Shown here: piece by piece, positions 1,486 through 62,858 of the stretch
Position numbering within the stretch: position 1 is the first letter of the stretch
How the letters are laid out: each line of letters starts with the position of its first letter
NCBI RefSeq assembly: GCF_006438965.1
Contig: NZ_RCZM01000004.1
Location: forward strand, 434,001-498,000
Length of the DNA: 64,000 bases
From: Pedococcus bigeumensis
Lineage (GTDB): Bacteria; Actinomycetota; Actinomycetes; Actinomycetales; Dermatophilaceae
Reading direction: 5' to 3'
Position numbers and translations under genes: made by a program
Notes under the pieces: model-generated
Databases searched by the model: none
Told to the model about the DNA's origin: nothing
What the model saw: only the letters and a program-made list of their open reading frames with translations

Positions 1486-1871
1486 ACGTTGCCGAGTACC
1501 CGGTCGACGGCGATCTCGACCACGACGCGCTCCGGGTTCACGCGCGGCACCCGGTAGCGGGCGGCATACCGGTCGACGGCGTCGGCCACCGCCTCGGTGT
1601 CGCTGAGCACGCGTGCCGTGCCCTCGAAGGAGAGCCAGTGACGCCCGTCTACCTGGCACACCACCGCCCGGCCCCCACCGGCTGCGTTCCGGGCCTTGCG
1701 GCTGGCGCCGCTGGTGATGACCCGGACGACGAGCGACTCCGTGTCCCAGGTGAACCCGACCGGCACCACGTGTGGCGAGCCGTCCGGGCGAAGCGTGGTC
1801 AACGTCGCGAGGTGCCGGTCCGTGACGAACTGGAGGGCGGCGGGGGACAGGTCTGCTGGTGCGGTGGCCAC
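1482..1871 (-). CDS. PPOX-fold (F420/FMN split-barrel) protein
   Basis: 129 residues from a GTG at 1871. The pattern [20 protein letters not shown] followed by [20 protein letters not shown] is typical of pyridoxamine-5'-phosphate-oxidase-like split-barrel proteins of the F420-dependent TIGR03618 type, which usually span 125-140 residues. An upstream ATG at 1940 would add 23 residues with no family match and would begin inside a tandem repeat, so I prefer the GTG; GACACT lies 5 bases upstream of it. F420 versus FMN use is not decidable here. Confidence 0.7.
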
Positions 1872-1924
1872 GTCGTAGTGTCGCAGGCCTGTGGTGCCGC
1901 GGATGGAGGCACCGCACCGGCCGT

Positions 1925-2003
1925 CCCTCATCGGTGCCAACCCGGTCCCTCATCCGTGCCAACCCGGTCCCTCATCCGTGCCAACCCGGTCCCTCATCCG
2001 TGC
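1925..2003. repeat. 22-base tandem repeat, about 3.6 copies
   Basis: Units start at 1925, 1947, 1969 and 1991; the last is cut at 2003. Each contains CCCTCATCCGTGCCAACC then CGGT; unit 1 differs by one base (TCGG for TCCG). The array lies between the start of the leftward PPOX-like gene and the rightward metalloprotease promoter. On the minus strand each unit contains an ATG, which creates spurious upstream start options. There are no spacers, so it is not CRISPR. Confidence 0.9.
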
Positions 2004-2071
2004 GACGTAGCTGACGTACGCCGATGGGGGACACATCCCGACTTCCCTGACCCGGGGCGTCCAGCCGGTGC

Positions 2072-2077
2072 TACTTT
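2072..2077 (+). promoter_or_regulatory. Putative -10 (TACTTT), leaderless start of secreted protease
   Basis: TACTTT is followed by 7 bases and the ATG at 2085. The same reading frame is open far upstream, so this hexamer plus the signal peptide decide the start. Confidence 0.4.
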
Positions 2078-2084
2078 GCGGACC

Positions 2085-4454: not shown

Positions 4455-4486
4455 CCGTCGCCGGTGTGGGCCGCCCGTGTGGTGCC

Positions 4487-5866
4487 CTAGTGACCGGTGA
4501 GGGCACCCAGCAACGTCGCAATCCGCGCCGGGCGACCGGTGCGCGCCTCCTCGCCATCGGCGGCGTGGGCCAGCCGCAGGCCGGCGTTGATCCCGGCCCA
4601 CCGAAGCGGTTCGGGCTCCCAGCGTCGGCTGCGGTGCCCGACCCAGGGCAGCTCCGTGAGTGGGGTATGCCGACCCGTCACCAGGTCCGCGAGGGTGCGC
4701 CCCGCGAGGTTGGTGGCCGCGACCCCGTCGCCGACGTAGCCGCCCGCCCACCCGAGTCCGGTGGAGGGGTCGTGACCGACCGAGGGGTGCCAGTCGCGGG
4801 CGATGCCCAGGGGCCCACCCCACGCATGGGTGAAGCGAACGCCCTCGACCTGGGGGAGCAGGTCGGTCAACGTTGCGCGCAGGTCTGCGAAAACCGTTGC
4901 CTCGTGGTCGAACTCGGGCTCGATCCGTGACCTGTAGTGGTAGGGCGCGCCTCGTCCGCCGAAGGCGAGCCGGTCGTCGGCGGTGCGCTGCCCGTAGATG
5001 ATGACGTGGCGGTGGTCGCTGAACACCTCACGCTCGGCGAGCCCGATGGCCGCCCACTGGGCTGCCGGGAGCGGCTCGGTGGCGACCATGAGTGAGTAGA
5101 CGGGCGCGACGGTGCGGCGCTCCCCGGGCAATGTGGGCGTCCACGCCTCCGTGGCCCGGATGACGTGACGCGCAACGACCTGACCCCCGTCGGCAAGCTT
5201 GGCCCGACCCGGCTCGATGGTGCCGACGCGGACTCCCTCGACCACCTCCGCGCCCTGGGCACGGACCGTGACTGCCAGGCCGTCGACGAGCTGCCGGGGG
5301 TGGACCCGTGCGCAGTGTGGTGTGAAGGTTGCGCCCTGGACCTGGCTGGCGGCCATCCGCTCGCTCGCCTCGGGAGCGTCGAGCCACCGGGTGCCAGTGC
5401 CCCACTGGTCGGCGTGGGCCACCTCGGCCCGCGCCCGCGTGACCTGGGCGGCAGACCGTGCGAGGGCAAGGGATCCACCCTTGCGGAATCCGCAGCCGAT
5501 GCCCGCGGATTCCGTTGCCCTGCCTACCTCGTCGACCGTGTTTCGCAGCTCCGCGAGCATCGCCATGGCCGCAGTCCGTCCGCGACGGCGGGCCAGCGCC
5601 TCCGGACCCACCGGCCACAGGGCCGACACCCAGCCACCGTTGCGTCCGCTCGCGCCGAAGCCAACGTGCTCCGCCTCGAGGACGAGGACGTCGAGGGACG
5701 GATCGGCCAGCAGCAGGTAGTGCGCGGTCCACAGTCCGGTGAACCCGCCGCCCACGATCACCACGTCGGCCCGGTGCGGGACGGGCGGCGAGGAGGGCCC
5801 GGACGCCGGCGACGCGGCATCCGGGCCCTCCTGCGCCCCCTGGTCCCACCAGAGCGGCTGGGTCAC
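4487..5866 (-). CDS. FAD-dependent amine oxidase, PuuB-like
   Basis: 459 residues. The N-terminal dinucleotide-binding motif ADVVIVGGGFTGLWTAHYLL (about 33-52), then VLEAEHVGFGASGRNGGWVS, is characteristic of the DAO family and close to gamma-glutamylputrescine oxidases. The C-terminus has GLGWAGGYVGDGVAATNLAG for FAD closure. It is the third gene of the leftward Lrp – aminotransferase – oxidase operon, 16 bases after the aminotransferase stop. Context points to polyamine or glutamylpolyamine oxidation, but no PuuA-type glutamate ligase is in the window, so a free amine or another N-substituted amine is possible. Confidence 0.78.
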   Translation of the reverse strand: MTQPLWWDQGAQEGPDAASPASGPSSPPVPHRADVVIVGGGFTGLWTAHYLLLADPSLDVLVLEAEHVGFGASGRNGGWVSALWPVGPEALARRRGRTAAMAMLAELRNTVDEVGRATESAGIGCGFRKGGSLALARSAAQVTRARAEVAHADQWGTGTRWLDAPEASERMAASQVQGATFTPHCARVHPRQLVDGLAVTVRAQGAEVVEGVRVGTIEPGRAKLADGGQVVARHVIRATEAWTPTLPGERRTVAPVYSLMVATEPLPAAQWAAIGLAEREVFSDHRHVIIYGQRTADDRLAFGGRGAPYHYRSRIEPEFDHEATVFADLRATLTDLLPQVEGVRFTHAWGGPLGIARDWHPSVGHDPSTGLGWAGGYVGDGVAATNLAGRTLADLVTGRHTPLTELPWVGHRSRRWEPEPLRWAGINAGLRLAHAADGEEARTGRPARIATLLGALTGH

Positions 5867-5882: not shown

Positions 5883-7283
5883 TCAGAGGTGCTTCTCGGC
5901 GCCGGTGAGCACCGAGCGGAGCCGGGACTCGATGTCGTCGAACTCGGTCTGGCCGATGATCAGCGGCGGCGCGAGCTGGATGACCGGGTCGCCCCGGTCG
6001 TCGGCCCGGCAGTAGAGACCGGCGTCGAAGAGTGCCTTGGACAGGTAGCCGCGCAGCAGCCGCTCGGACTCCGCGTCGTTGAACGTCTCGCGGGTCTCCT
6101 TGTCCTTGACCAGCTCGATGCCGTAGAAGTACCCGGCACCACGGACGTCGCCGACGATGGGCAGGTCGAGCAGCTTCTCGAGGGTGGCCCGGAACTTCGG
6201 GGCGTTTTCCTTCACGTGCGCGTTGAGGCCCTCGCGCTCGAAGATGTCGAGGTTGGCCATCGCCACCGCGGAGGACACCGGGTGGCCGCCGAAGGTGTAG
6301 CCGTGCATGAACGACGTGGTGCCCTTCTTGAACGGCTCGAACAGGCGGTCGCTGGCGATCATCGCGCCGATGGGGGAGTAGCCGGACGTCATGCCCTTGG
6401 CGCAGGTGATGATGTCAGGGACGTAGTTGAAGTCGTCGCAGGCGAACATCGAGCCGATCCGCCCGAACGAGCAGATCACCTCGTCGGACACCAGCAGGAC
6501 GTCGTACTCGTCGCAGATCTCGCGCACCCGCTCGAAGTACCCGGGCGGCGGCGGGAAGCAGCCACCGGAGTTCTGGACCGGCTCGAGGAAGACGGCGGCC
6601 ACCGTGTCGGGGCCCTCGAACTCGATGGCCTCGGCGATCCGGTCGGCGGCCCAGAGGCCGAACGCCTTGTCGTCATCGCGCAGGTGCTCCGGGGCGCGGT
6701 AGGCGTTCGTGTTCGGGACCTTGAAGGCGCCCGGGACCAGCGGCTCGAACATCTCCTTGGCTGCGGGGATACCGGTGATGGACAGCGCGCCCTGCGGGGT
6801 GCCGTGGTAGGCCACCGCGCGGCTGATCACCTTGTGCTTGGTCGGCTTGCCGGTCAGCTTGAAGTACTGCTTCGCGAGCTTCCAGGCGGTCTCGACGGCT
6901 TCGCCGCCACCGGTGGTGAAGAAGACCCGGTTGAGGTCGCCGGGGGCGCCGGCGGCGAGCCGCTCGGCGAGCTCGATCGCGCGGGGGTGCGCGTAGGACC
7001 ACAGCGGGAAGAAAGCCAGCTCCTTGGCCTGCTTCGCCGCGGCCTCGGCGAGCTCCTGGCGGCCGTGCCCGACCTGCACGACGAACAGCCCGGCGAGGCC
7101 GTCGATGTACTCGTTGCCCTTGTCGTCCCAGATCTTGTGGCCCTCACCGCGGACGATGACGGGTACCTTGCCACCCTCCTCGTAGGTGGAGTGGCGGGTG
7201 AAGTGCATCCACAGGTGATCCCGGGCGGCATCGGTGTATGCCGTGCCGGCGGGAGTCGTGGTGCGCGTGGTCTCGGTGCTCAT
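5883..7283 (-). CDS. Class III aminotransferase, putrescine/GABA type
   Basis: 466 residues, normal for this family. The PLP site is visible: LLVSDEVICSFGRIG supplies the aspartate and DIITCAKGMTSGYSPIG the Schiff-base lysine. The N-terminal HFTRHSTYEEGGKVPVIVRG matches SpuC-like putrescine–pyruvate aminotransferases. Likely reaction: putrescine plus pyruvate to 4-aminobutanal plus alanine; it may also act on GABA, as no separate GABA aminotransferase is seen. Its ATG overlaps the stop of the Lrp gene (ATGA), implying translational coupling. Confidence 0.82.
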   Translation of the reverse strand: MSTETTRTTTPAGTAYTDAARDHLWMHFTRHSTYEEGGKVPVIVRGEGHKIWDDKGNEYIDGLAGLFVVQVGHGRQELAEAAAKQAKELAFFPLWSYAHPRAIELAERLAAGAPGDLNRVFFTTGGGEAVETAWKLAKQYFKLTGKPTKHKVISRAVAYHGTPQGALSITGIPAAKEMFEPLVPGAFKVPNTNAYRAPEHLRDDDKAFGLWAADRIAEAIEFEGPDTVAAVFLEPVQNSGGCFPPPPGYFERVREICDEYDVLLVSDEVICSFGRIGSMFACDDFNYVPDIITCAKGMTSGYSPIGAMIASDRLFEPFKKGTTSFMHGYTFGGHPVSSAVAMANLDIFEREGLNAHVKENAPKFRATLEKLLDLPIVGDVRGAGYFYGIELVKDKETRETFNDAESERLLRGYLSKALFDAGLYCRADDRGDPVIQLAPPLIIGQTEFDDIESRLRSVLTGAEKHL

Positions 7284-10724: not shown

Positions 10725-11836
10725 TGGCGGCCACGCGGACCTCGGGAGACCTACGGCTGGCGGGTCTGACGAAGGAGTTCGACACCTTCACCGCGGTCCA
10801 TCCGATGGACCTCGTCATCCCGGAGGGCTCGTTCTTCGCCCTGCTCGGGCCGTCCGGCTGCGGCAAGACGACGACCCTGCGGATGGTTGCCGGTCTCGAG
10901 CAGCCCACCGCAGGTCGGATCCACATCGGGGACACCGAGATCACGGACACCAAGGCCCACCAGCGCAATGTCAACACCGTGTTCCAGTCCTACGCCCTCT
11001 TCCCGCACATGAACGTGCTCGAGAACGTCGAGTTCGGGCTGCGCCGTCGGGGCGACAAGAACGCCACGGTCAAGGCCAAGGAGGCGCTGGAGCTGGTCCA
11101 GCTGGGTGAGGTGGCGAAGAAGAAGCCGGCGCAGCTGTCCGGGGGAATGCAGCAGCGGGTAGCCCTGGCCCGGGCCGTCGTGAACCGACCGGACGTGCTC
11201 CTGCTCGACGAGCCCCTCGGCGCCCTCGACCTCAAGCTGCGTCGCCAGATGCAGATCGAGCTCAAACGCATCCAGCAGGAGGTCGGGCTGACCTTCATCC
11301 ACGTCACGCACGACCAGGAGGAGGCCATGACCATGGCCGACACCATCGCGGTGATGAACGCGGGCCGGATCGAGCAGCTTGGCGACCCGGCCACCCTGTA
11401 CGAACACCCCGCTTCCACCTTCGTCGCCAACTTCCTCGGACAGTCAAACCTGCTCAAGGTGACGGTGACCGGTCCGGCGCGGAACGGCGAGGTGCCGGTC
11501 ACGGCATACGACACTGCCCTCACGGTCGCAGCCGACCACGTGCCTGGCGACGCCAAGGAGGTATGGCTGGGCGTGCGCCCAGAGAAGCTGCGCATGGGTG
11601 AGCACGGTGGGCCGAACCGGTTGCACGGCACAGTGAGCGACGTGTCCTTCACGGGAGTGGCCACGCAGTACCTGGTCCGTATGCCGTGGGGCAAGGAACT
11701 CACCGTGGTCCAGCAGAACGACGGCTCCGGTCGGGCACGCCCCGGCGAGGACGTGACGATCTCGTGGGCCGCCGAGCACGGGTTCGCGCTCGACGCCGCC
11801 CAAGCGGCGGACGCCGGCGTCGAGGAGGAGGGCTAG
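10724..11836 (+). CDS. potA: Polyamine-type ABC transporter ATPase
   Basis: 370 residues. Walker A GPSGCGKTT, signature LSGGMQQRVALARA, Walker B VLLLDEPLGALD and the switch histidine in FIHVTHDQEEAMTMAD are all present. A C-terminal TOBE-like regulatory domain includes WLGVRPEKLRMG. Length and domain order match PotA. The ATG overlaps the stop of the binding-protein gene (TGATG), and the stop in turn overlaps the GTG of the next permease gene (TAGTG), so the transporter genes are translationally coupled. Confidence 0.88.
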   Translation: MAATRTSGDLRLAGLTKEFDTFTAVHPMDLVIPEGSFFALLGPSGCGKTTTLRMVAGLEQPTAGRIHIGDTEITDTKAHQRNVNTVFQSYALFPHMNVLENVEFGLRRRGDKNATVKAKEALELVQLGEVAKKKPAQLSGGMQQRVALARAVVNRPDVLLLDEPLGALDLKLRRQMQIELKRIQQEVGLTFIHVTHDQEEAMTMADTIAVMNAGRIEQLGDPATLYEHPASTFVANFLGQSNLLKVTVTGPARNGEVPVTAYDTALTVAADHVPGDAKEVWLGVRPEKLRMGEHGGPNRLHGTVSDVSFTGVATQYLVRMPWGKELTVVQQNDGSGRARPGEDVTISWAAEHGFALDAAQAADAGVEEEG

Positions 11837-15247: not shown

Positions 15248-16354
15248 GTGACGCGCTACGGACAGCAGTACGGCCCCGACTTCACCTTCCTCGGCGTGGA
15301 CCGCTGCGACCTCGACGATGAGAGCACGTATGCCGATGCGGACGTCGTGATCCTCGGCGCACCGTTCGACGGGGGCACCTCGCACCGACCCGGCACGCGG
15401 TTCGGGCCGCAGGCCATCCGGATGACCGACTACCTGCCGCACGACGGCTCGCGCCCCTCCCTGGCGTTGCGCACCGATGGCCTCGTCGACCTGCGGGTCG
15501 TCGACGCCGGCGACGTCGAGATGTACTCCGGCGACATCGAGCGGTCCCTGCCCAAGCTTGAGGCCGCGGTCGAGCGCGTGACGCGAGCGGGCGCCATACC
15601 CGTCGTCCTCGGCGGCGACCACTCCATCGCGTTCCCCGACGCCAAGGGTGTCGCGAACGTCCTGGGCCACGGCCGCATCTCGATGATCCACTTCGACGCC
15701 CACGCCGACACCGGTGACATCGAGTTCGGGTCGCTGTGGGGACACGGCCAGCCGATGCGGCGGCTCATCGAGTCCGGCGCCCTGCGCGGCGACCGGTTCC
15801 TGCAGATCGGGCTGCGCGGGTACTGGCCGCCGCCGGAGACGCTCGACTGGATGGCCGGCCAGCAGATGCGGTCGTTCGAGATGACCGAGATCGTGCACCG
15901 GGGCCTCGACGAGGTGCTCACCGAGGCGTTCAGTATCGCCACCGACGAGTGCGAGGGCGTCTTCCTGTCGGTCGACATCGACGTCTGCGACCCGGGCCAC
16001 GCACCCGGCACCGGCACCCCCGAGCCAGGCGGCCTCTCGGCCCGCCAGCTGCTCGACGCCGTCCGGCGGATCTGCCTGGAGCTGCCCGTCGTCGGGGTCG
16101 ACATCGTCGAGGTGAGCCCGCCCTACGACCACGCCGACATCACCGCGGCGCTTGCGAACCGCGTTGTCCTCGAAGCTCTTTCGGCCATCGCCCGCAAGCG
16201 GCAGGACGAGCGGGACGGCACCAGCTGGGACCCCGCGCAGCCGCTGCTCTCGGGGCGCAACGGTGCCATCCCCGAGGGCCACATCCAGCAGCACCAGCAC
16301 ACCCACCAGACGCACGACCAGTCGCACGAGCACGCACCGGAGGAGCAGGGCTGA
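15248..16354 (+). CDS. speB: Agmatinase-type ureohydrolase with His-rich C-terminal tail
   Basis: 368 residues. The binuclear metal site of the arginase/agmatinase family is complete: GGDHSIAFP, HFDAHADTGD and SVDIDVCDPGHAPG. Family members release urea from agmatine, guanidinobutyrate, guanidinopropionate, guanidine or related compounds; the polyamine context favours agmatine or guanidinobutyrate. Beyond the normal end of the fold (about residue 323) there is an extra tail. Its stretch at about 345-362 holds seven histidines in 18 residues (for example HQHTHQTHDQSHEH), which looks metal-binding. The stop overlaps the ATG of the next dehydrogenase gene (TGATG). The symbol is by family only. 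Confidence 0.8.
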   Translation: MTRYGQQYGPDFTFLGVDRCDLDDESTYADADVVILGAPFDGGTSHRPGTRFGPQAIRMTDYLPHDGSRPSLALRTDGLVDLRVVDAGDVEMYSGDIERSLPKLEAAVERVTRAGAIPVVLGGDHSIAFPDAKGVANVLGHGRISMIHFDAHADTGDIEFGSLWGHGQPMRRLIESGALRGDRFLQIGLRGYWPPPETLDWMAGQQMRSFEMTEIVHRGLDEVLTEAFSIATDECEGVFLSVDIDVCDPGHAPGTGTPEPGGLSARQLLDAVRRICLELPVVGVDIVEVSPPYDHADITAALANRVVLEALSAIARKRQDERDGTSWDPAQPLLSGRNGAIPEGHIQQHQHTHQTHDQSHEHAPEEQG

Positions 16355-20471: not shown

Positions 20472-20504
20472 CCGGGCTGGGACCGCAGGCGGCCGGTCAT
20501 GGGC

Positions 20505-20510
20505 GACAAT
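20505..20510 (+). promoter_or_regulatory. Putative -10 (GACAAT) before dxr
   Basis: GACAAT is followed by 6 bases and the GTG at 20517. It supports GTG 20517 over the in-frame ATG at 20499, which lies upstream of this hexamer. Confidence 0.33.
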
Positions 20511-25380: not shown

Positions 25381-25412
25381 ACGCGGCATACCTCCGCAGA
25401 GGTATGCCGCGT
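25381..25412. terminator. Perfect 14-bp hairpin built from two GTATGCCG motifs
   Basis: Arms ACGCGGCATACCTC (25381-25394) and GAGGTATGCCGCGT (25399-25412) with a CGCA loop. It follows the response-regulator stop (25416, minus strand) by three bases and precedes the exporter promoter. It fits a terminator for the two-component operon, although no T-run follows, as is usual in GC-rich actinobacteria. Confidence 0.7.
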
Positions 25413-27432: not shown

Positions 27433-27487
27433 GGGCCGGCATACCGGATAATGGGCCGCATGACTGTTGGACTTGGTATGCCGGCCC
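27433..27487. repeat. 13-bp inverted repeat flanking the ispG start
   Basis: GGGCCGGCATACC (27433-27445) and GGTATGCCGGCCC (27475-27487) are perfect inverted copies 29 bases apart, each holding the 8-mer GTATGCCG. The spacer holds the likely -10 and the ATG. If transcription starts at the ATG, the left arm is not in the RNA, so a DNA-level role is as likely as an RNA hairpin. Confidence 0.8.
27447..27452 (+). promoter_or_regulatory. Putative -10 (GATAAT) before ispG
   Basis: GATAAT, close to the TATAAT consensus, is followed by 7 bases and the ATG at 27460. This argues against the in-frame ATG at 27451, which overlaps the hexamer. Confidence 0.45.
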
Positions 27488-32512: not shown

Positions 32513-32613
32513 ACCCGAGGCGCCCCGCCAGGGTGCCTGACGGAAACCATGGTGAGCCCGCGGCATACCCACCGATATCCTCTGGGGGTTGTCCGCCAAC
32601 CGAGGAGTGCCAC

Positions 32614-42777: not shown

Positions 42778-42783
42778 ACCGTA
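42778..42783 (-). promoter_or_regulatory. Putative -10 (TACGGT), leaderless start of thioredoxin-domain gene
   Basis: Minus-strand TACGGT ends 6 bases before the ATG at 42771 and overlaps one GTATGCCG motif copy (42781-42788). Confidence 0.4.
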
Positions 42784-42813
42784 TGCCGCGTGCTCGCGGC
42801 CGTGTCGAGTGGC

Positions 42814-49189: not shown

Positions 49190-50590
49190 CTAGTGGCCCT
49201 GGCTGCCCTGGGTGACCTGGGTGACCTGGCCCGGGGCCGGGGCTCCGACCGGCTCCGGCTCCCTCTCGGGTTCGTGGTCGATCATGCTCGCCTCGTCGAA
49301 CGGCAGGTCACCGGCGAGGACGGAGTCGAGCCGTGGCCGGTCCAGCTCGCCCACCCAGTGCCCGATGAGGACCGTCGCGATCGAGTTGCCGGCGAAGTTG
49401 GTCAGCGCCCGAGCCTCGCTCATCATCCGGTCGATCCCCACGATGAAGCCGACACCGTCGACCAGGTCGGGGCGGTGCGACTGCAGGCCGCCAGCCAGGG
49501 TGGCCAGACCCGCTCCTGTCACGCCGGCCGCACCCTTCGACGCGATGATCATGAACACCAGCAACGAGATCTGCTGGCTGAGCGAAAACGGCTTGTCCAT
49601 GGCGTCGGCGATGAACAACGACGCCATCGTCAGGTAGATCGCCGTCCCGTCGAGGTTGAACGAGTATCCCGTCGGCACCGTGATGCCGACCACCGGCCGG
49701 GACACTCCCGCATGCTCCATCTTGGCGATGAGGCGGGGGAGGGCCGACTCCGACGACGAGGTCGACAGGATGAGCAGGAACTCGCGGGCGAGGTACTTGA
49801 ACAACGCGAAGACGTTGACCCCGGTGACCAGCTTGAGGATCGTGCCGAGGACCAGGAAGACGAACAGGAAGCAGGTGATGTAGAACGCCACCATCACGAC
49901 TGCCAGGCTCTGCAGGGCCTTCCAGCCCGTGGCGCCCACCACGGCAGCCATCGCTCCGAACGCACCGATCGGCGCGGCATACATGATCATCGCCATCAGG
50001 CGGAAGACGAGCCGCTCGAAGTGCTTGATGCCGACCAGGATCGGCTCGCCCGCCCGCCCCATCTTCTGCAGGGCGAAGCCGACGAGCAGGGCCACGAGCA
50101 GGGCCTGGAGCACGGACCCGGCGGTGAGCGCCGAGACGAGCGTGTCGGGAATGAGTCCGAGGATGAAGTCGGTCGTCGTCTCCGCCTCGCCGCTGACCTG
50201 GCTCTGGCCGCTCTTGGCCAGCGCCTCGGTGAGGTGCAGACCCGCGCCGGGCTTGACGATGTTCCCGACCACGAGGCCGATGGCCAGGGCCACGGTCGAC
50301 ATCGTCAGGAAGTAGCCGAGCGCGAGCCCGCCCACCTTGCCCACCTGGGTGGCCTTGCGGACCGAGCCGATGCCCAGCACGATCGTGCAGAAGATGATGG
50401 GGGTGATCATCATCTTGATGAGGTTGACGAAGCCGGTGCCGAGCCACTTGAGCTTGACCCCCAACTCGGGGAAGGCGAACCCGACGATGATGCCAAGGAC
50501 CATCGCCGCGATGACGGCGAGGTAGAGGTAGTGCGTGCGGTCCCGCTTCGGTGCGGGCCGGTCGACGACGCTGTCGGCGCTGGTGCTCAC
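49190..50590 (-). CDS. dctA: Dicarboxylate/amino acid:cation symporter (DctA family)
   Basis: 466 residues from the GTG at 50590, preceded by GGAG. Family motifs: GTGFVNLIKMMITPIIFCTI, the re-entrant loop STSSSESALPRLIAKMEHAG and VPTGYSFNLDGTAIYLTMAS then LFIADA. About eight helices and two hairpins as in GltPh. Likely imports C4-dicarboxylates with Na+ or H+. The tail ends GQVTQVTQGSQGH, a small repeat. Divergent from a CitA/DctS-type sensor kinase and regulator, which very likely control it. Confidence 0.9.
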   Translation of the reverse strand: MSTSADSVVDRPAPKRDRTHYLYLAVIAAMVLGIIVGFAFPELGVKLKWLGTGFVNLIKMMITPIIFCTIVLGIGSVRKATQVGKVGGLALGYFLTMSTVALAIGLVVGNIVKPGAGLHLTEALAKSGQSQVSGEAETTTDFILGLIPDTLVSALTAGSVLQALLVALLVGFALQKMGRAGEPILVGIKHFERLVFRLMAMIMYAAPIGAFGAMAAVVGATGWKALQSLAVVMVAFYITCFLFVFLVLGTILKLVTGVNVFALFKYLAREFLLILSTSSSESALPRLIAKMEHAGVSRPVVGITVPTGYSFNLDGTAIYLTMASLFIADAMDKPFSLSQQISLLVFMIIASKGAAGVTGAGLATLAGGLQSHRPDLVDGVGFIVGIDRMMSEARALTNFAGNSIATVLIGHWVGELDRPRLDSVLAGDLPFDEASMIDHEPEREPEPVGAPAPGQVTQVTQGSQGH

Positions 50591-50675: not shown

Positions 50676-50744
50676 GATTGTGTTCATTGAGTTCTGCGCG
50701 CGACGAGCCCTTGCGTGGCGGTTCGGCGAGCAGTTTCCTCCGGT

Positions 50745-52364
50745 ATGCCGGTGAGCGCACCTCGGTGGCTCACCGCACCGGGGCGGTGGAGCGTGGCAGC
50801 GCAGACCTTCGCGTTGCAGGTTCTCGTCGCACTGCTCGTGGTGGGGGTCGGGACGGTGGCCGCGTACGCGCAGGCGCAGCGGGCTGGGACCCGGGAGGCA
50901 ACCGCTCGCGCGACGGCGGTGGCTGAGACCGTCGCGAGCACGCCAACGGTGGTGGCTGCCGTACCGGACGGTGACCGCGCGCGGGTGCTGCCGGACTTCG
51001 CTGACGTGGTGCAGCGCGAGACGGACACCGACTTCGTGGTGATCATGAGCCCGACCGGGATCCGCTACAGCCACCCTGACCGCTCCCAGATCGGTGGGCA
51101 GTTCCTGGGGCACATCGCCGCGGCCCAGGCCGGTGGGACCGTCGTCGAGGACTACACAGGGACGCTCGGCCCGTCGCGCCGCGTGGTGGTGCCGGTGGTG
51201 GGCAGCGACCGCCACACCGTCATCGGACTGGTGGCCGTCGGGATCAGGAAGACGGCGGTCAGCGAGCGACTTCGCTCGCAGCTGCCGGCCCTGCTGCTGG
51301 CCGGTCTCGCGGCCGCGCTGCTCTGCGGCCTGGGGACGGCCCTGGTGGCTCGCCGGATCCGCCGCCAGACCCACGGCCTCGGCGAGCGACAGCTGCAGGA
51401 GATGGTCGAGTACTACGACGCGGTGCTGCACGCCGTGACCGAGGGGCTGCTGCTCACGGACCTCGACGGGCGGCTCCGGCTCGCCAACGACGAAGCGGTC
51501 CGGCTGCTGGGCCTGCCCGACGACGCCCGCGGCCGGCCGGTGTCCGAGCTGGGCCTGTCCGCGCCGCTGCTGGCCGCGCTCACTGACACCGAGCCGCGCG
51601 CGGACGAGCTGCACGTCACCTCGGCCCGGGTCCTGGTCCTCAACAAGGCCCGGGCCCAGTGGGACGGCCGGGCGCTCGGCTTCGTCGCCACCGTCCGTGA
51701 CCGCACCGACCTCGAGCACCTGACCGGTGAGCTCGACTCGGCGCGCGGTCTCACCGAGGCACTGCGCTCGCAGGCGCACGAGTCGGCCAACCGACTGCAC
51801 GCCATCGTGTCGCTCATCGAGCTCGGGCACCCCGACCGCGCCCTCGCCTTCGCCACCGACGAGCTACAGCTGTCCCAGCGGCTCACCGACCGGTTCGTGG
51901 GGGCCGTGGCGGAGCCCACGCTGACCGCCCTGCTGCTCGGCAAGGCCGCCCAGGCCAGCGAGCGCGGCATCGACTTCCGGATCGCGGACGACGCCGTCTG
52001 GCCGCAGGACGTCGCCCCGGTGCGGGACGTCGTGACCATCGTCGGCAACCTCATCGACAACGCCTTCGACGCGGTCACCGCGGAGTCGGGGGAGCGTCGC
52101 GTCGAGGTGTCCTCGCGGATCGAGGACGGCCACGTCGTGCTGAGCGTCGCGGACTCCGGTCCGGGGTTGCCACCCGACGCCGTCGACGAGGCGTTCCGGC
52201 GCGGGTTCTCCACGAAGGCGCAGGGAAGCGCTGGGCGCCGTGGCATCGGGCTGGCCCTCGTGGCGCAGTCGGTGGCGCGGCTCGACGGCCTCCTCGAGGT
52301 GTCGGGCCCGCCCGGTGCCCGGTTCACCGTGCGGCTGCCGCTGGAGGCGAAAACCCATGCCTGA
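50745..52364 (+). CDS. CitA/DctS-type sensor histidine kinase
   Basis: 539 residues from ATG 50745 (an in-frame GTG at 50715 would add 10). Two helices (about 23-40 and 180-200) bracket an extracytoplasmic PDC/Cache sensor with DTDFVVIMSPTGIRYSHPDR, the hallmark of CitA/DcuS-type citrate and C4-dicarboxylate sensors. Then a PAS domain (EGLLLTDLDGRLRLANDEAV), the phosphoacceptor histidine in LRSQAHESANRLHAIVSLIE, and ATPase boxes NLIDNAFDA, DSGPGLP and GRRGIGLALV. Its stop overlaps the regulator gene by 8 bases. Confidence 0.88.
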   Translation: MPVSAPRWLTAPGRWSVAAQTFALQVLVALLVVGVGTVAAYAQAQRAGTREATARATAVAETVASTPTVVAAVPDGDRARVLPDFADVVQRETDTDFVVIMSPTGIRYSHPDRSQIGGQFLGHIAAAQAGGTVVEDYTGTLGPSRRVVVPVVGSDRHTVIGLVAVGIRKTAVSERLRSQLPALLLAGLAAALLCGLGTALVARRIRRQTHGLGERQLQEMVEYYDAVLHAVTEGLLLTDLDGRLRLANDEAVRLLGLPDDARGRPVSELGLSAPLLAALTDTEPRADELHVTSARVLVLNKARAQWDGRALGFVATVRDRTDLEHLTGELDSARGLTEALRSQAHESANRLHAIVSLIELGHPDRALAFATDELQLSQRLTDRFVGAVAEPTLTALLLGKAAQASERGIDFRIADDAVWPQDVAPVRDVVTIVGNLIDNAFDAVTAESGERRVEVSSRIEDGHVVLSVADSGPGLPPDAVDEAFRRGFSTKAQGSAGRRGIGLALVAQSVARLDGLLEVSGPPGARFTVRLPLEAKTHA

Positions 52365-53088
52365 CAACGACATCCCGGACCGTGACCCCCCTGACAAGTC
52401 AACCCAGCCCGAGGTTCTCAAGGTGCTCGTCGTCGAGGACGAGCCCGTGGCGTTGGAGGCCCACACGGCATACGTCGAACGGGTGCCCGGCTTCGTCGTC
52501 GCGGCCACGGCCGCCACCAGCCACGAGGCGCTGCGCGCCCTGCAGTCCACCCCCGTCGACGTGGTCCTGCTCGACATGAACCTGCCCGACCGCCATGGCC
52601 TCGACGTGATCCGGGCGATGCGCGCAGGCGGGCACCAGGCCGACGTCATCGCCGTGACGTCCGCGCGAGACCTCGACGTGGTCCGCGCGGCCGTCTCCCT
52701 GGGCGTCGTGCAGTACCTCCTCAAGCCCTTCGTCTTCGCCACCCTGCGCGACCGCCTCGAGGCCTACCGCGCCTACCGCACCCAGCTCGGCGACACCCAG
52801 CACCTGTCCACCCAGGCCGAGGTCGACGAGGTCTTCGCCGGGGTGCGGACCAGCACACCCACGGCGCTGCCCAAGGGGATGAGCGAGGACCTGCTGGCGC
52901 GGGTCACCCGGGCGCTGCGGGACTCGGCCACCGGGCTGTCCGCGAGCGAGCTCGGGGAGGCCGTCGGCGTGAGCCGGGTGACCGCACGCCGCTACGCCGA
53001 GCACCTCTCGGACAGCCGCCTCGCCGTCCGCACCCAGAGGTATGCCGGTGCCGGACGTCCCGAGGTGGAGTACCGCTGGGTGGGCTGA
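52357..53088 (+). CDS. CitB/DctR-type response regulator
   Basis: 243 residues from ATG 52357. Receiver domain: KVLVVEDEPVALEAH, phospho-aspartate in DVVLLDMNLPDRHG, VIAVTSARD and lysine in QYLLKPFVF. The C-terminal helix-turn-helix is SASELGEAVGVSRVTARRYA. This is the CitB/DctR class that activates dicarboxylate uptake genes; the divergent dctA is the obvious target. Palindrome C follows 25 bases after the stop. Confidence 0.9.
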   Translation: MPDNDIPDRDPPDKSTQPEVLKVLVVEDEPVALEAHTAYVERVPGFVVAATAATSHEALRALQSTPVDVVLLDMNLPDRHGLDVIRAMRAGGHQADVIAVTSARDLDVVRAAVSLGVVQYLLKPFVFATLRDRLEAYRAYRTQLGDTQHLSTQAEVDEVFAGVRTSTPTALPKGMSEDLLARVTRALRDSATGLSASELGEAVGVSRVTARRYAEHLSDSRLAVRTQRYAGAGRPEVEYRWVG

Positions 53089-55287: not shown

Positions 55288-55821
55288 ATGAGCGTCAAGG
55301 AACAGATTCGTCCCGCCGTCGAGGGCCCCCTGCGCGACCTGGGTCTGCTGGTCGAGGACGTCGCCGTGACGCCCGCCGGCAAGCGCCGCCTCGTCCGCAT
55401 CTGGATCGACCGGATCCTCGACGGCACCGGTGACACGACCGCCGTCACGCCCCCGCTCACCCTCGACGAGGTGGCCGACGCCACCCGAGCCGTGAGCGAC
55501 GCCCTCGACGAGACCGGCGCGATGGGCGAGCAGCCCTACACCCTCGAAGTCGGCTCGCCAGGCATCGACCGGCCACTCACCGAACCGCGCCACTTCCGGC
55601 GCAACGTCTCGCGGCTGGTCACCATCACCCCGTTGGAGGGGCCCGCCGTGACCGGCCGGATCACCTCCGCCGGCGAGTCGGGCATCACCCTCGACGTGCC
55701 GGGCGCCAAGCAGGAGCCGGCGCAGTCCGTGGACGTGGCGTATGCCGACGTGTCCAGGGCCGCCGTGCAGGTCGAGTTCTCGAGACCGGCCAGCGACGAC
55801 GACAACTCTGAGGAGAACTGA
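55288..55821 (+). CDS. rimP: Ribosome maturation factor RimP
   Basis: 177 residues. Needed for 30S subunit maturation. Core segments: [26 protein letters not shown], the hinge [20 protein letters not shown] (the LEVSSPGxxRPL signature with G for the first S), then a C-terminal Sm-like barrel. TAGAGT at 55244-55249 is a likely -10, giving a leader of about 30 bases that contains GAGGACGA. Confidence 0.93.
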
Positions 55822-56946: not shown

Positions 56947-57291
56947 GTGGCATCGAGCACCACCCTCCACACCCCGCACGGGCAACCGACCCGGACGTGT
57001 GTGGGATGCCGCGGGACGGATAGCCGGTCGGCACTCCTGCGAGTGGTCGCGGAGACGGATGAGACCGGAGCGATTCGGCTGACTCCTGACCTGCGGCGTT
57101 GCCTGCCGGGGCGCGGCGCTTGGCTGCATCCCACGGGTGACTGTCTTGAGCAGGCCCTGCGCCGTCGGGCGTTCGGTCGCGCGCTGCGTGTCAGCGCCGC
57201 CCCGGATCCGGCAGCGGTGACGGCATACGTCCAGGACCTGGGCACGACCACGAGCCAGGCAGTGCACGAAAAACAACCACCCTCAGCCTGA
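56947..57291 (+). CDS. ylxR: YlxR-family (DUF448) RNA-binding protein
   Basis: 114 residues from GTG 56947; an in-frame GTG at 56917 would add 10 residues. The YlxR signature is RTCVGCRGTDSRSALLRVV, and GRGAWLHPTGDCLEQALRRR, then AFGRALR is the C-terminal conserved part. YlxR acts with NusA and IF-2 operon products and in some bacteria modulates RNase P. A TAGACT at 56910-56915 would place transcription start downstream of GTG 56917, which favours the shorter protein, though rimP-nusA read-through is also expected. Confidence 0.85.
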   Translation: MASSTTLHTPHGQPTRTCVGCRGTDSRSALLRVVAETDETGAIRLTPDLRRCLPGRGAWLHPTGDCLEQALRRRAFGRALRVSAAPDPAAVTAYVQDLGTTTSQAVHEKQPPSA

Positions 57292-57467: not shown

Positions 57468-60392
57468 GTGGCTAAGGTCCGTGTAAGCGCGCTCGCCAAA
57501 GAGCTCGGCACCGACAGCAAGACCCTGATCGCTCACCTGAACAGCATTGGTGAGTACGTCAAGACCGCCAGCTCGACGATTGAAGCCCCCGTCGTCCGCA
57601 AGGCGACCGAGACATTCCCCGAGGACCTCAAGAAGGCTCCCGCCAAGAAGGCTGCAGCGAAGCCGGCCGGTCCGGCCGCTCCCGCGGCGCCTGCTGCACC
57701 GTCCGCCCCTGTGGTGGTCCCGGCTGCTGCGGCCTCGGCTCCGGCAGCACCCGCTCCGGTGGCCGCTCCTGCGGCTCCCGAGCCGGCCGCCCCGGCCGCA
57801 GCTGCACCCGCTAGCCCGGCTCCGGCCGCGCCCGCCGCCGTGGAGGCTCCCGCCGCCCGGGCCGACGTGCAGTCCGCCCGTGACGGTGGCCAGCAGGGTC
57901 CCGGCGTGCCGGCGTCCCCGCGTCCCGGCAGCACCCCGCGTCCCGGTGCCTCCGCGCCGGGCGCTCCCCGCCCCGGCGCACCGCGCCCCGGCAACAACCC
58001 GTTCGCGCCCAGCCAGGGCATGCGCACCGGCCGTGAGGGTGGCCCCCGCGAGGGTGCTCCTCGCGAAGGTGCCCCTCGCGAGGGTGCGCCCCGTGAGGGT
58101 GGCGGTCGCGACAACGCCCGTCCGGGCAACAACCCGTTCGCGCCCAGCCAGGGTATGCCGCGTCCGCAGAGCCGTCCCGGTGCTGCCGGTCCGCGCCCCG
58201 GCGGCACGGCCGGCCCCGGTGGGCCCCGTCCCGCCGGTGCCCGTCCCAGCCCCGGCATGATGCCCGACCGCAGTGCGGTCGGGCGTCCCGGTGACCGTCC
58301 CGCCCGTGGTGGCGCTCGTGGCCCTGGCGGCCCCGGCGGTGCCGGCGGCGGTCGTGGACCCGGTGGTCCCGGAGGCCCCGGTGGCCCCGGTGGTGGCGGC
58401 GGTTTCGCCGGTCGCCCCGGTGGCGGTGGCTTCCGTGGTGGTGCCGGTCGCGGCTCGACCGCGGGTGCCTTCGGTCGCGGTGGTGGCCGCCCCGTGCGTG
58501 GACGCAAGTCCAAGCGTGCGAAGCGCCAGGAGTTCGAGCAGATGCAGGCCCCGTCGCTGGGAGGCGTCACCGTCCCCCGCGGCAACGGCACGACCCTCAT
58601 CCGGGTCCGCCGCGGCTCGTCGCTGAGCGACTTCGCCGACAAGATCAACGCCAACCCCGGTGCACTCGTGACGGTGCTCTTCCACCTCGGCGAGATGGCC
58701 ACGGCCACCCAGTCGCTGGACGAGGACACCTTCAAGCTGCTCGGTGCCGAGCTCGGCTACAACATCGAGGTCGTCTCCCCCGAAGAGGAGGAGAAGGAGC
58801 TCTTCGACGCCTTCAACATCGACCTGGAGACGGGTATCGAGGGTGAGGACGACGAGGACCTGCAGGCCCGTCCGCCGGTCGTGACCGTCATGGGTCACGT
58901 CGACCACGGAAAGACCCGCCTGCTCGACGCGATCCGCAACGAGGACGTCGCCGGTGGCGAGTCCGGTGGCATCACCCAGCACATCGGTGCCTACCAGGTG
59001 CACAAGATGCACGAGGGCGTCGACCGTCCGATCACCTTCATCGACACCCCGGGCCACGAGGCGTTCACCGCCATGCGTGCCCGTGGTGCCAAGGTGACCG
59101 ACATCGCGATCCTCGTGGTCGCCGCCGACGACGGCGTCATGCCGCAGACCATCGAGGCGCTCAACCACGCCCAGGCTGCGGACGTGCCGATCGTGGTCGC
59201 GGTCAACAAGATCGACGTCGAGGGTGCCAACCCGGCCAAGGTGCGTCAGCAGCTGACCGAGTACAACCTGGTCGCCGAGGAGTACGGCGGCGAGACCATG
59301 TTCGTCGACGTCTCGGCCAAGGCCGGGCAGAACATCGACGCCCTCCTCGAGGCCGTCCTGCTCACCGCCGACGCCGCGCTCGACCTGCGTGCCAACGCCG
59401 ACCGCGACGCCCGTGGTGTCGCGATCGAGGCCAACCTCGACCGTGGCCGTGGCGCCACTGCCACCGTGCTGGTCCAGGCCGGAACGCTGCACGTCGGTGA
59501 CGCCATCGTCACGGGCTCGGCCTACGGCCGGGTCCGTGCGATGCTCGACGAGCACGGCAACAACCTCACCGAGGCGGGTCCGTCCCGTCCGGTGCAGGTG
59601 CTCGGTCTCTCCTCGGTCCCGCGCGCCGGTGACACCTTCGTGGTGGCCCCGGACGACCGCACGGCCCGTCAGATCGCCGAACGTCGTGAGTCCGCGGACC
59701 GGCAGGCCTCGCTGGCCAAGGCCCGCAAGCGCATCTCGCTCGAGGACCTCACCGAGGCCCTCGCAGCAGGCAAGGTCGAGACCCTCAACCTCATCCTCAA
59801 GGGTGACGTGTCCGGTTCCGTCGAAGCCCTCGAGGACGCGCTGCTCCAGATCGACGTGGGCGACGAGGTCGACCTGCGGATCATCGACCGCGGCGTCGGT
59901 GCGATCACGATGAACAACATCAACCTCGCCATGGCGTCCAGCGCCGTGATCATCGGCTTCAACGTCCGGGCCGAAGGCCAGAACGCTGACTACGCCGAGC
60001 GCGAGGGCGTCGAGATCCGCTACTACTCGGTGATCTACCAGGCCATCGAGGAGATCGAGGCGGCCCTCAAGGGCATGCTCAAGCCGGAGTTCGAGGAGGT
60101 GGAGCTCGGCACCGCCGAGATCCGCGAGATCTTCCGCTCCAGCAAGTTCGGCAACATCGCCGGTTCCATCGTGCGCAGCGGTGAGATCAAGCGTGGCACC
60201 CGGGCCCGGATCACCCGTAACGGTGTGGTCGTGTCCGAGAACATCGAGATCGCTGGTCTGCGCCGGTTCAAGGATGACGTCACCGAGGTCCGCGAGGGCT
60301 TCGAGTGCGGCATCAACCTGGGGTCGTACAACGACCTCCAGATCGAGGACCTGATCAGCACCTACGAGATGCGCGAGAAGCCGCGCGCCTGA
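57468..60392 (+). CDS. infB: Translation initiation factor IF-2
   Basis: 974 residues from a GTG preceded by GGAGAA. N-terminal IF2N motif [20 protein letters not shown]. Residues about 50-345 are low complexity: an Ala/Pro-rich part, then Gly/Arg/Pro-rich with REGAP repeated several times and the segment [10 protein letters not shown] twice. The GTPase domain has G1 [18 protein letters not shown]3 [18 protein letters not shown] and G4 [12 protein letters not shown]. The C-terminal domains end at [14 protein letters not shown]. Delivers initiator tRNA to the 30S subunit. Confidence 0.96.
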
Positions 60393-60404
60393 CGGGTATG
60401 CCGT

Positions 60405-60441: not shown

Positions 60442-60492
60442 CGGCTTCGCCTGAGAGATTGATCCTCACCTACAGCAGCAAGGAGTCCTGCC

Positions 60493-60987
60493 ATGGCTGA
60501 CGCCGGACGCGCACGCAAGATCGCCGATCGCATCAAGACGCTCATCGCCGCCAACGTCGTGTCGATCGTCAAGGACCCCGACCTGGGTTTCATCACCATC
60601 ACCGACGTCCGCGTGACCGGTGACCTCCAGCACGCCTCGGTCTTCTACACCGTGTTCGGTGACGAGGTGCAGCGCGCCAAGACGGCTGCGCTGCTGGAGA
60701 AGAACAAGGGACGGCTGCGGTCCTTTGTCGGCCAGCAGATCCAGATCCGGCTGACCCCGAGCCTGGACTTCTTCGCCGACGCGATCCCGGAGACCGCGGC
60801 GCACATGGAGGACCTCCTGCGCGAGGCCAAGGAACGTGACGAGGCCGTGGCAGCGGCTGCCGCCGGGGCCAAGTACGCCGGCGACGCCGACCCCTACCGC
60901 AAGCCCGAGCCCGAGGACGACGACACCGATGCCGATGGCGTCCCTGGGGACGGCACCGAGGACACCGGCGCGGATGCCCGCGCCTGA
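60493..60987 (+). CDS. rbfA: Ribosome-binding factor A
   Basis: 164 residues with AAGGAG upstream. KH-like fold: RARKIADRIKTLIAANVVSI, then DPDLGFITITDVRVTGDLQH and SLDFFADAIPETAAHMEDLL. The C-terminal ~35 residues are acidic and disordered (PEDDDTDADG). Helps late 30S maturation and cold adaptation. The last 14 bases overlap truB. Confidence 0.93.
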   Translation: MADAGRARKIADRIKTLIAANVVSIVKDPDLGFITITDVRVTGDLQHASVFYTVFGDEVQRAKTAALLEKNKGRLRSFVGQQIQIRLTPSLDFFADAIPETAAHMEDLLREAKERDEAVAAAAAGAKYAGDADPYRKPEPEDDDTDADGVPGDGTEDTGADARA

Positions 60988-61888
60988 CGGCCTGCTCGTC
61001 GTCGACAAGCCGGCCGGCTGGACCAGCCACGACGTCGTCGGGCGGACCCGGCGGTTGTGCGCCACCCGCAAGGTCGGCCACGCCGGCACGCTCGACCCGA
61101 TGGCCACCGGTGTCCTGGTGCTGGGGATCGGGCGGGCCACCCGGCTGCTGACCTTTCTGGTCGGCTGCGACAAGGACTACACCGCCACGATCCGGCTCGG
61201 GCAGCGCACCATCACCGACGACGCCGAGGGCGAGGTCACCGCGTCCACGGCCGCAGACGGCGTCACCACCGAACAGCTGCAGGCGGCCGTCGGCCGGCTC
61301 ACCGGCGACATCCAGCAGGTCCCGAGCTCCGTCTCGGCCATCAAGGTCAAGGGTGAGCGTTCCTACGCCCGGGTCCGGGCGGGCGAGGACGTCGAGCTGC
61401 CCCCTCGCCCCGTGACGGTCAGCCGGTTCGACGTCCTGGCCACCCGCGCAGGCGACGTGGACGGCATACCCGTGCTCGACGTGGACGTCGAGGTGACGGT
61501 GAGCTCCGGCACCTACGTCCGCGCGCTGGCTCGCGACCTCGGCGACACGCTCGGTGTCGGGGGTCACCTCACCGCGCTGCGCCGCACGCGCGTCGGCGCG
61601 TTCACGCTCGACCAGGCGCACGACCTCGAGTCGCTCGGCGCCCTCGGTGACCCCGAGCAGATCCCCGTCACCCTCCTCGCCGACGCCGCCCGCGCCCAGT
61701 TCACGGTGCGCGAGCTGACCGACGCCGAGACCACGGCGGTGGGCTACGGCCAACGGGTCGACTCGGCGCAGGAGGGGCGCATCGACCCGGTCGCGGCCTT
61801 CGCGCCGGACGGCCGCCTCGTCGCCATGCTCGACGAGTCGGGCCACAAAGCCAAGGGGCACGTCGTGTTTGCCCCGGCGGGTTCGTAG
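60974..61888 (+). CDS. truB: tRNA pseudouridine(55) synthase
   Basis: 304 residues from the ATG at 60974, inside the rbfA end. Motifs: GLLVVDKPAGWTSHDVV, the catalytic aspartate in KVGHAGTLDPMATGVLVLG, KDYTATIRLGQRT, and SSGTYVRALARDLGDTLG. The C-terminal PUA-like domain is short. Makes pseudouridine 55 in the T-loop of tRNAs. The D-G-I-P stretch at 61460-61470 uses the rare Ile codon ATA, which completes a GTATGCCG motif. Confidence 0.94.
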   Translation: MPAPDGLLVVDKPAGWTSHDVVGRTRRLCATRKVGHAGTLDPMATGVLVLGIGRATRLLTFLVGCDKDYTATIRLGQRTITDDAEGEVTASTAADGVTTEQLQAAVGRLTGDIQQVPSSVSAIKVKGERSYARVRAGEDVELPPRPVTVSRFDVLATRAGDVDGIPVLDVDVEVTVSSGTYVRALARDLGDTLGVGGHLTALRRTRVGAFTLDQAHDLESLGALGDPEQIPVTLLADAARAQFTVRELTDAETTAVGYGQRVDSAQEGRIDPVAAFAPDGRLVAMLDESGHKAKGHVVFAPAGS

Positions 61889-61891
61889 AGT
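61886..61891 (+). promoter_or_regulatory. Putative -10 (TAGAGT), leaderless start of ribF
   Basis: TAGAGT overlaps the truB stop codon and is followed by 7 bases and the GTG at 61899, supporting that start over an ATG at 61869 inside truB. Confidence 0.42.
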
Positions 61892-61898
61892 GTCCTCC

Positions 61899-62858
61899 GT
61901 GCACCGCTGGACCGACCCCTCACAGACGCCCGAGAGCCTGCGCTCCTCGGTCGCCACCTTCGGCAACTTCGACGGCGTCCACCTCGGCCACCGAGCCGTC
62001 CTCGCGCGGCTGCTCGCCGAGGCGAGCGAGCGTGGGCTGCCCAGCGTCGCGGTCACCTTCGACCCGCACCCGGCGACGATCTTCCACCCGGAGACCCTCG
62101 AGCTGATCGCGCCCGGTCGGCTGCGCGACGAGCTGCTCGAGACGACCGGGATCGACGGCCTGCTCGTCCTCGACTTCACGCAGGAGTTCGCGCAGCAGAC
62201 CGCCGAGGAGTTCATCGTCCACACCTTCGTCGAGACGCTCGGGGTCAAGGCCATCGTCGTCGGCGAGGACGCCCGGGGGTTCGGCCGCGGCTACACCGGT
62301 GACGTCTCGACGCTCACCGCCCTGGGAGAGGAGCACGGTTTCGACGTCGTAGTCCTCGACGACCTCGGCAACGGCGAGCGCTGGTCCTCCTCCGCCGTGC
62401 GTCGCCACCTCGCTGCCGGCGAGATGGCGGGGGCGTCCGCGATCCTGGGGCGTCCGCACCGCATGACCGGCACCGTCGTCCACGGCGCCCACCGGGGGCG
62501 CGAGCTGGGCTACCCGACCGCCAACCTCGCGACCGACTCGCTGGGCCTCATCCCCGCAGACGGGGTGTATGCCGGGTGGCTCACCCGGGTGGCCAAGCCC
62601 ACCGACGACCCGGAGCGGACCCTGCCGGCGGCGATCTCGGTAGGCACCAACCCGACCTTCGACGGCACCCTGCGGACCGTTGAGGCGTACGTCCTCGACC
62701 GGACCGACCTCGACCTCTACGACGAAGAGGTCACCGTCGAGTTCGTCGAGCACATCCGTCCCACCCTGCGCTTCGACTCCGTCGAGGAGCTGCTCGAAGC
62801 CATGGCCGGGGACATCGAGAAGTGCCGACAGGTCCTCGCCTCGATCGTCCCGTCCTGA
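61899..62858 (+). CDS. ribF: Bifunctional riboflavin kinase/FAD synthetase
   Basis: 319 residues from a GTG. N-terminal FMN adenylyltransferase: VATFGNFDGVHLGHRAVLAR, VTFDPHPATIF and SSSAVRRHLAAGEM. The C-terminal riboflavin kinase domain has GRELGYPTANLATDSLGLIP and ISVGTNPTFDG, VEAYVLDRTDLDLYDEEVTV. It makes FMN and FAD, needed among others by the flavin enzymes elsewhere in this window. Confidence 0.94.
   Translation: MHRWTDPSQTPESLRSSVATFGNFDGVHLGHRAVLARLLAEASERGLPSVAVTFDPHPATIFHPETLELIAPGRLRDELLETTGIDGLLVLDFTQEFAQQTAEEFIVHTFVETLGVKAIVVGEDARGFGRGYTGDVSTLTALGEEHGFDVVVLDDLGNGERWSSSAVRRHLAAGEMAGASAILGRPHRMTGTVVHGAHRGRELGYPTANLATDSLGLIPADGVYAGWLTRVAKPTDDPERTLPAAISVGTNPTFDGTLRTVEAYVLDRTDLDLYDEEVTVEFVEHIRPTLRFDSVEELLEAMAGDIEKCRQVLASIVPS

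Follow-up and report, generated by a model that had tools for sequence, protein, structure and literature searches.

The 8-mer GTATGCCG is non-palindromic and recurs throughout the 64,000-nucleotide stretch of actinobacterial DNA analyzed here (hereafter, the window), as well as throughout the genome from which the window was taken (the source genome). This feature is real, genome-wide, and confined to one family among the sampled genomes, and the force that shapes it acts equally on both strands and seems to act per DNA fragment. We think it probable that GTATGCCG serves naturally transformable actinobacteria as a self-recognition tag for DNA uptake, comparable to the DUS (DNA uptake sequence) of Neisseriaceae and the USS (uptake signal sequence) of Pasteurellaceae but used by different machinery. 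An uptake sequence explains most of the observations.

Abundance, placement, and spacing of GTATGCCG

The window contains 39 copies of GTATGCCG (21 on the forward strand and 18 on the reverse strand), with the first starting at position 1562 and the last ending at 62574, exactly as counted in the first-pass annotation that was made from these letters alone. When the window was shuffled 100 times with dinucleotides preserved, the mean was 0.96 copies and the maximum was 4, and GTATGCCG has the top order-1 z-score among all 8-mers of the window. The excess persists in the full source genome (13 contigs, 4.22 Mb), which has 2551 copies (1264 forward and 1287 reverse) compared with 74 copies of the reversed word used as a control. 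In 464 kb of this genome, with the window included, we found 310 copies where an order-2 Markov model predicts 7.5, a 42-fold excess. The order-6 model that the first-pass annotation had proposed cannot discriminate (37.3 copies expected and 39 found in the window) because enriched 7-mers within the word already hold the excess. The lack of strand bias, from which the same annotation had argued against a polar signal such as Chi or KOPS (FtsK orienting polar sequences), was also seen in a 264-kb stretch (93/86) and a 200-kb stretch (62/69) of the source genome, compared by stretch rather than by mapped replichore, and in the sum over 105 motif-rich genomes (100649 forward and 100946 reverse; see below for the definition). 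The flanks of the 310 copies show a weak preference: position -1 is seldom A, C is found at +8 (the first base beyond GTATGCCG) in 156 copies, and G is found at +9 and +12 in 213 and 184 copies, respectively. Two other words are over-represented in the 464 kb: TTTGAAGGATC, with 13 copies when both strands are counted, and TCTGTGCACAGA, a palindrome counted 10 times on the two strands and thus occupying five places.

By a crude gene call, 215 of the 310 copies are located in called genes, 91 are intergenic, and four are at gene edges. Approximately 15% of this DNA is non-coding, such that the density of GTATGCCG between genes is about twice the average. The genic copies are spread over every one of the six possible combinations of frame and strand (96, 66, 21, 17, 13, and 2), and uncommon codons are drawn in: GTATGCCG contains 99 of the 258 TAT codons (38%) and 17 of the 40 ATA codons (42.5%) of the called genes. 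The excess over several reading frames and intergenic DNA and the recruitment of uncommon codons, both read from the window in the first-pass annotation, thus hold over the larger sample.

The copies are also spaced more evenly than expected by chance. Within the 464 kb, the mean distance between successive copies is 1489 bases, the coefficient of variation of the gaps is 0.77, and the variance/mean ratio in 10-kb bins is 0.48 (Poisson lower tail, p = 0.0014). None of the 28 control 8-mers (230-410 copies each) matches this regularity; their ratios are at least 0.73. Opposite-strand neighbors no more than 50 bases apart occur 19 times, compared with a median of 3 among the 28 controls (one control has 26). 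Of these close inverted pairs, 13 are wholly intergenic, and nine of the 13 lie within 40 bases beyond a called gene end. Even spacing has been described for uptake sequences in excerpts of PMC1939737, a distance of about 1500 nucleotides for the neisserial DUS in excerpts of PMC2397512, and inverted pairs at terminators in passages of both. All copies in the window, including three close pairs, are listed in Table 1.

Table 1. Positions of GTATGCCG within the window. Gene names are what we take the open frames to be.
Feature	Positions	Strand	Remark
GTATGCCG	1562..1569	-	exact match
GTATGCCG	4665..4672	+	exact match
GTATGCCG	7236..7243	+	exact match
GTATGCCG	11502..11509	-	exact match
GTATGCCG	11679..11686	+	exact match
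GTATGCCG	15328..15335	+	exact match
GTATGCCG	20735..20742	+	left arm of inverted pair 20735-20765, within called open frame 20499-21779 (presumably dxr)
GTATGCCG	20758..20765	-	right arm of inverted pair 20735-20765
GTATGCCG	23059..23066	+	exact match
GTATGCCG	25384..25391	-	left arm of near-palindrome 25384-25409, overlaps 5' end of open frame 24556-25389 (-)
GTATGCCG	25402..25409	+	right arm of near-palindrome 25384-25409
GTATGCCG	27049..27056	-	exact match
GTATGCCG	27437..27444	-	arm of close opposite-strand pair 27437-27483, start of open frame 27451-28620 (presumably ispG)
GTATGCCG	27476..27483	+	second arm of pair 27437-27483
GTATGCCG	28881..28888	-	exact match
GTATGCCG	30780..30787	-	exact match
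GTATGCCG	31586..31593	+	exact match
GTATGCCG	32561..32568	-	exact match
GTATGCCG	33354..33361	+	exact match
GTATGCCG	36250..36257	+	exact match
GTATGCCG	37457..37464	-	exact match
GTATGCCG	37815..37822	+	exact match
GTATGCCG	38088..38095	+	exact match
GTATGCCG	40157..40164	-	exact match
GTATGCCG	40867..40874	+	exact match
GTATGCCG	42627..42634	-	exact match
GTATGCCG	42781..42788	+	exact match
GTATGCCG	44543..44550	-	exact match
GTATGCCG	48766..48773	-	exact match
GTATGCCG	49975..49982	-	exact match
GTATGCCG	50743..50750	+	exact match
GTATGCCG	52466..52473	-	exact match
GTATGCCG	53040..53047	+	exact match
GTATGCCG	55740..55747	+	exact match
GTATGCCG	57221..57228	-	exact match
GTATGCCG	58153..58160	+	exact match
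GTATGCCG	60396..60403	+	exact match
GTATGCCG	61462..61469	-	exact match
GTATGCCG	62567..62574	+	exact match

Distribution and dialects among relatives

We defined genomes with at least 600 copies of GTATGCCG as motif-rich and those with fewer than 150 as motif-poor; those with 150-599 copies are neither. All 11 genomes searched from the genus of the source hold 625-3986 copies. Among the 186 genomes of the family, 105 are rich, 15 have 150-599 copies, and 66 are poor; by genus, 25 of the 53 are rich throughout, five are mixed, and 23 have no rich member. The reversed control is raised in some rich genera, and the ratio of word to control ranges from 2.5 (genus g18) to 70. The sample of the order comprised 297 genomes, 24 of them from this family, and none of the 273 genomes sampled from other families exceeds 177 copies; the genome with 177 copies has 135 of the control. 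The family is probably Dermatophilaceae. Among the matches listed for a TadA of the source genome, the best named relative (72% identity) comes from a Dermatophilaceae metagenome bin with four copies of GTATGCCG in 21 kb. A scan of genome contigs with TadA found at least 79 loci, with one Dermatophilaceae among the matches listed.

On a NusA/InfB tree, the rich and poor states require seven to nine changes, depending on the placement of the intermediate genomes; this was a quick tree of 40 genomes, three of which have about a third of the columns. In all nine genomes of genus g30 (G082-G090), and also in G101 and G110, the NusA match is broken into two pieces, which suggests an insertion or an additional long loop. 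Within the genus of the source, sites are kept above control levels, with some turnover. When orthologous stretches of 20 kb were compared among ten members (G006, with no copy there, was excluded), 341 of the 615 comparisons (0.55) showed the exact word in both genomes, compared with 0.37 for control 8-mers of equal A+T. The sharing is uneven, with 6/7 sites for G000/G004, 3/9 for G000/G010, and 2/9 for G000/G009.

The word itself varies among lineages. In a 40-kb sample of the rich genome G039, the sixth base is A in 15 copies, C in 13, G in 16, and T in 10, so that the word there is GTATGNCG; the corresponding counts in a sample of G019 are 5, 6, 5, and 2. This relaxed form is used in genera g14, g48, and g37, and in four of the five g4 genomes. 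Counted over the family as GTATGDCG, which pools the three other sixth bases, the relaxed forms total 3273-5477 in g14, 3747 in G167, 2147 in G104, and 1151-1550 in the four g4 genomes. They are intermediate in g41, g42, g49, g52, and three g1 genomes (G001, 738; G005, 746; G009, 521), and low in the source genome (145), g17, g30, g44, g47, and g50.

A different iterated word, CGAAGGGGG, which is unrelated to GTATGCCG, is found in samples of two motif-poor sister genera, g27 and g36. We found 71 copies (33 forward and 38 reverse) in 147 kb from three genomes, where 3.9 are expected, and its near misses are mostly at background, except those with A or T as the last base. The samples were from G062 (L125, L126, L195, L220, and L244), G103 (L196 and L224), and G102 (L139 and L140); no excess of CGAAGGGGG was found in samples of two g46 genomes. 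Raised words in other motif-poor genomes, namely, GTACGCCG in G100, GTACGNCG in G094, and GTAGCGGC in G124, may be dialects or codon effects. A scan for sharpness did not single them out as separate dialects, which is a weak negative because its filters also lost true words (G096 had no GTATGCCG row and G000 had no core word). The motif-poor genome G184 has dispersed, mostly intergenic repeats with words such as CGCACCTA, CACCTACT, and CTACTCGA (in L137, L138, L221, L238, and L199).

Proposed uptake and its possible machinery

If GTATGCCG is an uptake sequence, duplex DNA bearing the word would first be bound by a receptor at the cell surface, for which ComEA and a minor pilin of a Tad-type competence pilus are candidates; ComEA and ComEC would import one strand, and homologous recombination would exchange this strand into the chromosome. 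Tagged fragments would enter preferentially, and new copies would be favored in any 1-2 kb fragment that lacks one. Such a preference would fill the genome evenly, irrespective of strand and reading frame, and also as hairpins at gene ends. We infer the uptake, the receptor, and the drive from these patterns, and we propose a Tad pilus with ComEA/ComEC as the machinery because type IVa pilus genes are rare in this family. According to excerpts of PMC4322843, transformation of Micrococcus luteus needs two tad clusters and comEA/EC. The source genome has comEA (with SLBB and helix-hairpin-helix domains) and comEC, both open.

In a survey of 34 genomes, we distinguished three classes of TadA by E-value, a rough criterion, as shown by G131. 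Class I was found in all 34 (33 above the curated cut-off; the copy of G104 is split over contigs). Class II adjoins comFC and is missing there in most rich genomes examined; it is absent beside comFC in the rich genomes G049, G175, G039, G051, G164, G113, G089, G116, and G019, and was rejected as a correlate of the motif. Class III is a cluster in the order tadA-tadB-tadC-flp-tadE-tadF-tadG, which, judged by gene arrangement, may be the counterpart of one Micrococcus luteus tad cluster. The class III locus itself was inspected in 19 of the 20 genomes fetched (for G131, L234 belongs to another class) and in G002, G175, G109, and G131. Rich G095 and G104, poor G153, G021, and G031, and intermediate G044, G012, and G029 are outside the 14 rich and 12 poor genomes compared.

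All seven class III genes were matched in 11 rich genomes (G000, G008, G017, G019, G039, G049, G089, G096, G113, G116, and G164). In the poor genomes G094, G178, and G184, the cluster has a shortened tadC and lacks flp, tadE, and tadF; tadG is also absent, except for a tail in G178. The tadA of poor G109 is split, and the survey of TadA classes, the only search made there, found no class III TadA in poor G032, G103, and G106. The locus is thus broken or missing in seven of the 12 poor genomes and affected in four of the 14 rich ones. For the pilin genes alone, the counts are 12/12 rich and 5/8 poor (p = 0.049), a comparison chosen after the data were seen. In three pairs of rich and poor sisters on the NusA/InfB tree, class III is broken in the poor member each time (G094, G178, and G109).

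Several results weigh against this interpretation, chiefly the weak link to the pilus and the lack of excess among near misses. The first-pass annotation had proposed looking for competence genes that co-occur with the word; comEA/comEC and tad genes are present in the host, but motif-poor relatives mostly have them too. ComEC is found in 180 of the 186 family genomes, and ComFC and tadB/C-type genes likewise occur in rich and poor genomes alike (T2SSF, i.e., tadB/C-type, genes in 183/186). PilM, the marker of the type IVa pilus that recognizes DUS in Neisseria with its minor pilin ComP, is found in only seven of the 186 and not in the source genome (ComP itself was not searched). ComEC, tadB/C-type genes, and PilM were rejected as correlates of the motif. 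At the class III locus, the poor genomes G018, G062, G100, G124, and G160 have seven unbroken genes; among rich genomes, tadA is split by an insert in G002 and G175, G131 yielded only the first half of tadA, and G008 has a tadC that matches in two frames (L226:10936-11337 region), indicating a frameshift or a sequencing error. The locus is unbroken in 10/14 rich and 5/12 poor genomes (Fisher p = 0.23), or 11/14 and 5/12 when G008 is counted as intact (p = 0.11), and TadA alone is complete in 13/16 and 11/15 (p = 0.69). The pair G175/G178 is affected in both members. Poor G018 shares the same intact locus with rich G017 and G019, as does poor G124 with rich G116, and in these two contrasts the poor member is unbroken. 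The link between the class III pilus and the motif is suggestive at most. Moreover, no residue of Flp, TadE, TadF, or TadG separates the 11 rich from the five poor genomes. As for the near misses, excerpts of PMC1939737 describe mismatched forms of DUS and USS as over-represented according to their similarity. Under the order-2 model in the 464 kb, the 24 one-mismatch words of GTATGCCG pooled show no excess (311 compared with 306.7 expected) and range from 0 to 3.1 times expectation, led by CTATGCCG (3.1, 15 copies) and ATATGCCG (2.8, four copies); GGATGCCG and GTAGGCCG are both at 1.7. Finally, one host phage has two copies of GTATGCCG where 0.94 are expected, which is uninformative.

Two further observations concern these loci. 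The comEC of motif-poor G094 (L036:6079-8426) matches in two frames, which suggests a frameshift or possibly a sequencing error. The inserts in the tadA of G002, G175, and G109 bear a large serine recombinase at the junction (L246:1111-2577, L247:11378-12799, and L249:250-1668, respectively); those of G109 and G002, the two compared, are 34-42% identical to phage integrases. Class III tadA looks like a recurrent integration site. The inserts of G002 and G175 contain two copies of GTATGCCG in 13.6 kb, and their flanks four in 6.9 kb and none in 5.5 kb, too little DNA to judge depletion.

Alternative explanations and significance

The first-pass annotation had likened GTATGCCG to HIP1 (highly iterated palindrome 1) of cyanobacteria or to an uptake sequence rather than to a protein-level effect; our results support this, and the evidence leans to the uptake kind. 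An intracellular protein for methylation, recombination, or repair might bind or modify the word, which would be kept by selection or repair bias, and an all-or-none core would fit the specificity of an enzyme, while the change of the sixth base from C to N, or the new word CGAAGGGGG, could be enzyme swaps. Competence genes also track the motif poorly, and cyanobacterial HIP1, likewise a highly iterated 8-mer restricted to one clade, is reported to be linked to orphan methyltransferases. However, HIP1 is palindromic and GTATGCCG is not, the deamination products GTATGTCG, GTATGCTG, and GTATGCCA show no excess in the 464 kb (0.85, 0.28, and 0.00 of expectation), and even spacing and close inverted pairs are features reported for uptake sequences. 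We consider this explanation unlikely, though it survives best among the alternatives. What tilts the balance toward uptake is the non-palindromic word, the intergenic location of 13 of the 19 pairs, the even spacing near 1.5 kb, the target that varies by lineage, and the patchy presence.

A chromosome-organizing site for a nucleoid or segregation protein would explain the even, genome-wide spacing, but loss in sister lineages and the relaxation of one base are unexpected for a housekeeping organizer. Chi and KOPS are polar sites. Although GTATGCCG is short and iterated like them, such polar uses would skew the strands, and its copies are equal on both; we regard an organizing role as improbable. 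Even less credible is a transcription terminator or regulatory element, for which the intergenic pairs just beyond gene ends speak, but 215 of the 310 copies lie within called genes. Although two frames prevail (96 and 66 of the 310), we dismiss an artifact of codons, dinucleotides, or peptide repeats almost entirely, given the copies in six relations of frame and strand and in non-coding DNA, the one-mismatch words near background, the rare codons drawn in, and the lack of the word in the sampled genomes of the order's other families.

As an uptake sequence, GTATGCCG would most resemble DUS, for which excerpts of PMC3630211 and PMC2397512 describe lineage dialects, copies about 1.5 kb apart, and inverted pairs located at gene ends. 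Both are non-palindromic, with thousands of copies, similar spacing, inverted pairs at gene ends, and dialects. Unlike DUS, GTATGCCG is found in an unrelated phylum where PilM is rare, is shorter and sharper with no excess of near misses, and is replaced by a wholly different word in two sister genera. Like USS, it has weaker flanking preferences beside the core (G at +9 and +12) and is evenly spaced (described for USS in passages of PMC1939737), but it differs in the word, in the host cell envelope, and in having no gradient of mismatched forms.

The first-pass annotation knew of no such motif in actinobacteria, and we found no earlier report among the open-licence PMC papers listed in our searches. 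To our knowledge, sequence-tagged uptake of DNA has been described only in Neisseriaceae and Pasteurellaceae, both of them proteobacterial families. On our best reading, GTATGCCG is likely to be the first uptake sequence known outside these families. A broader scenario, toward which we do not quite lean, is that the whole family exchanges tagged DNA through a Tad-type pilus, using three or more tags (GTATGCCG, GTATGNCG, and the unrelated CGAAGGGGG), that lineages switch language by tag, and that phage-type integrases repeatedly inserting in the pilus ATPase gene switch the exchange off. If GTATGCCG is an uptake sequence, it would add a third case, independent of the other two and found in monoderm bacteria that use another pilus, and tagged uptake would be a trait that evolves repeatedly. 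With 105 rich and 66 poor members, sister pairs, and dialects, the 186 genomes would provide a natural experiment for finding the receptor and learning why tags evolve. The word would also guide the choice of donor DNA for laboratory transformation of these bacteria, and in a genus with the relaxed dialect, GTATGACG would be expected to be equivalent to GTATGCCG for uptake.

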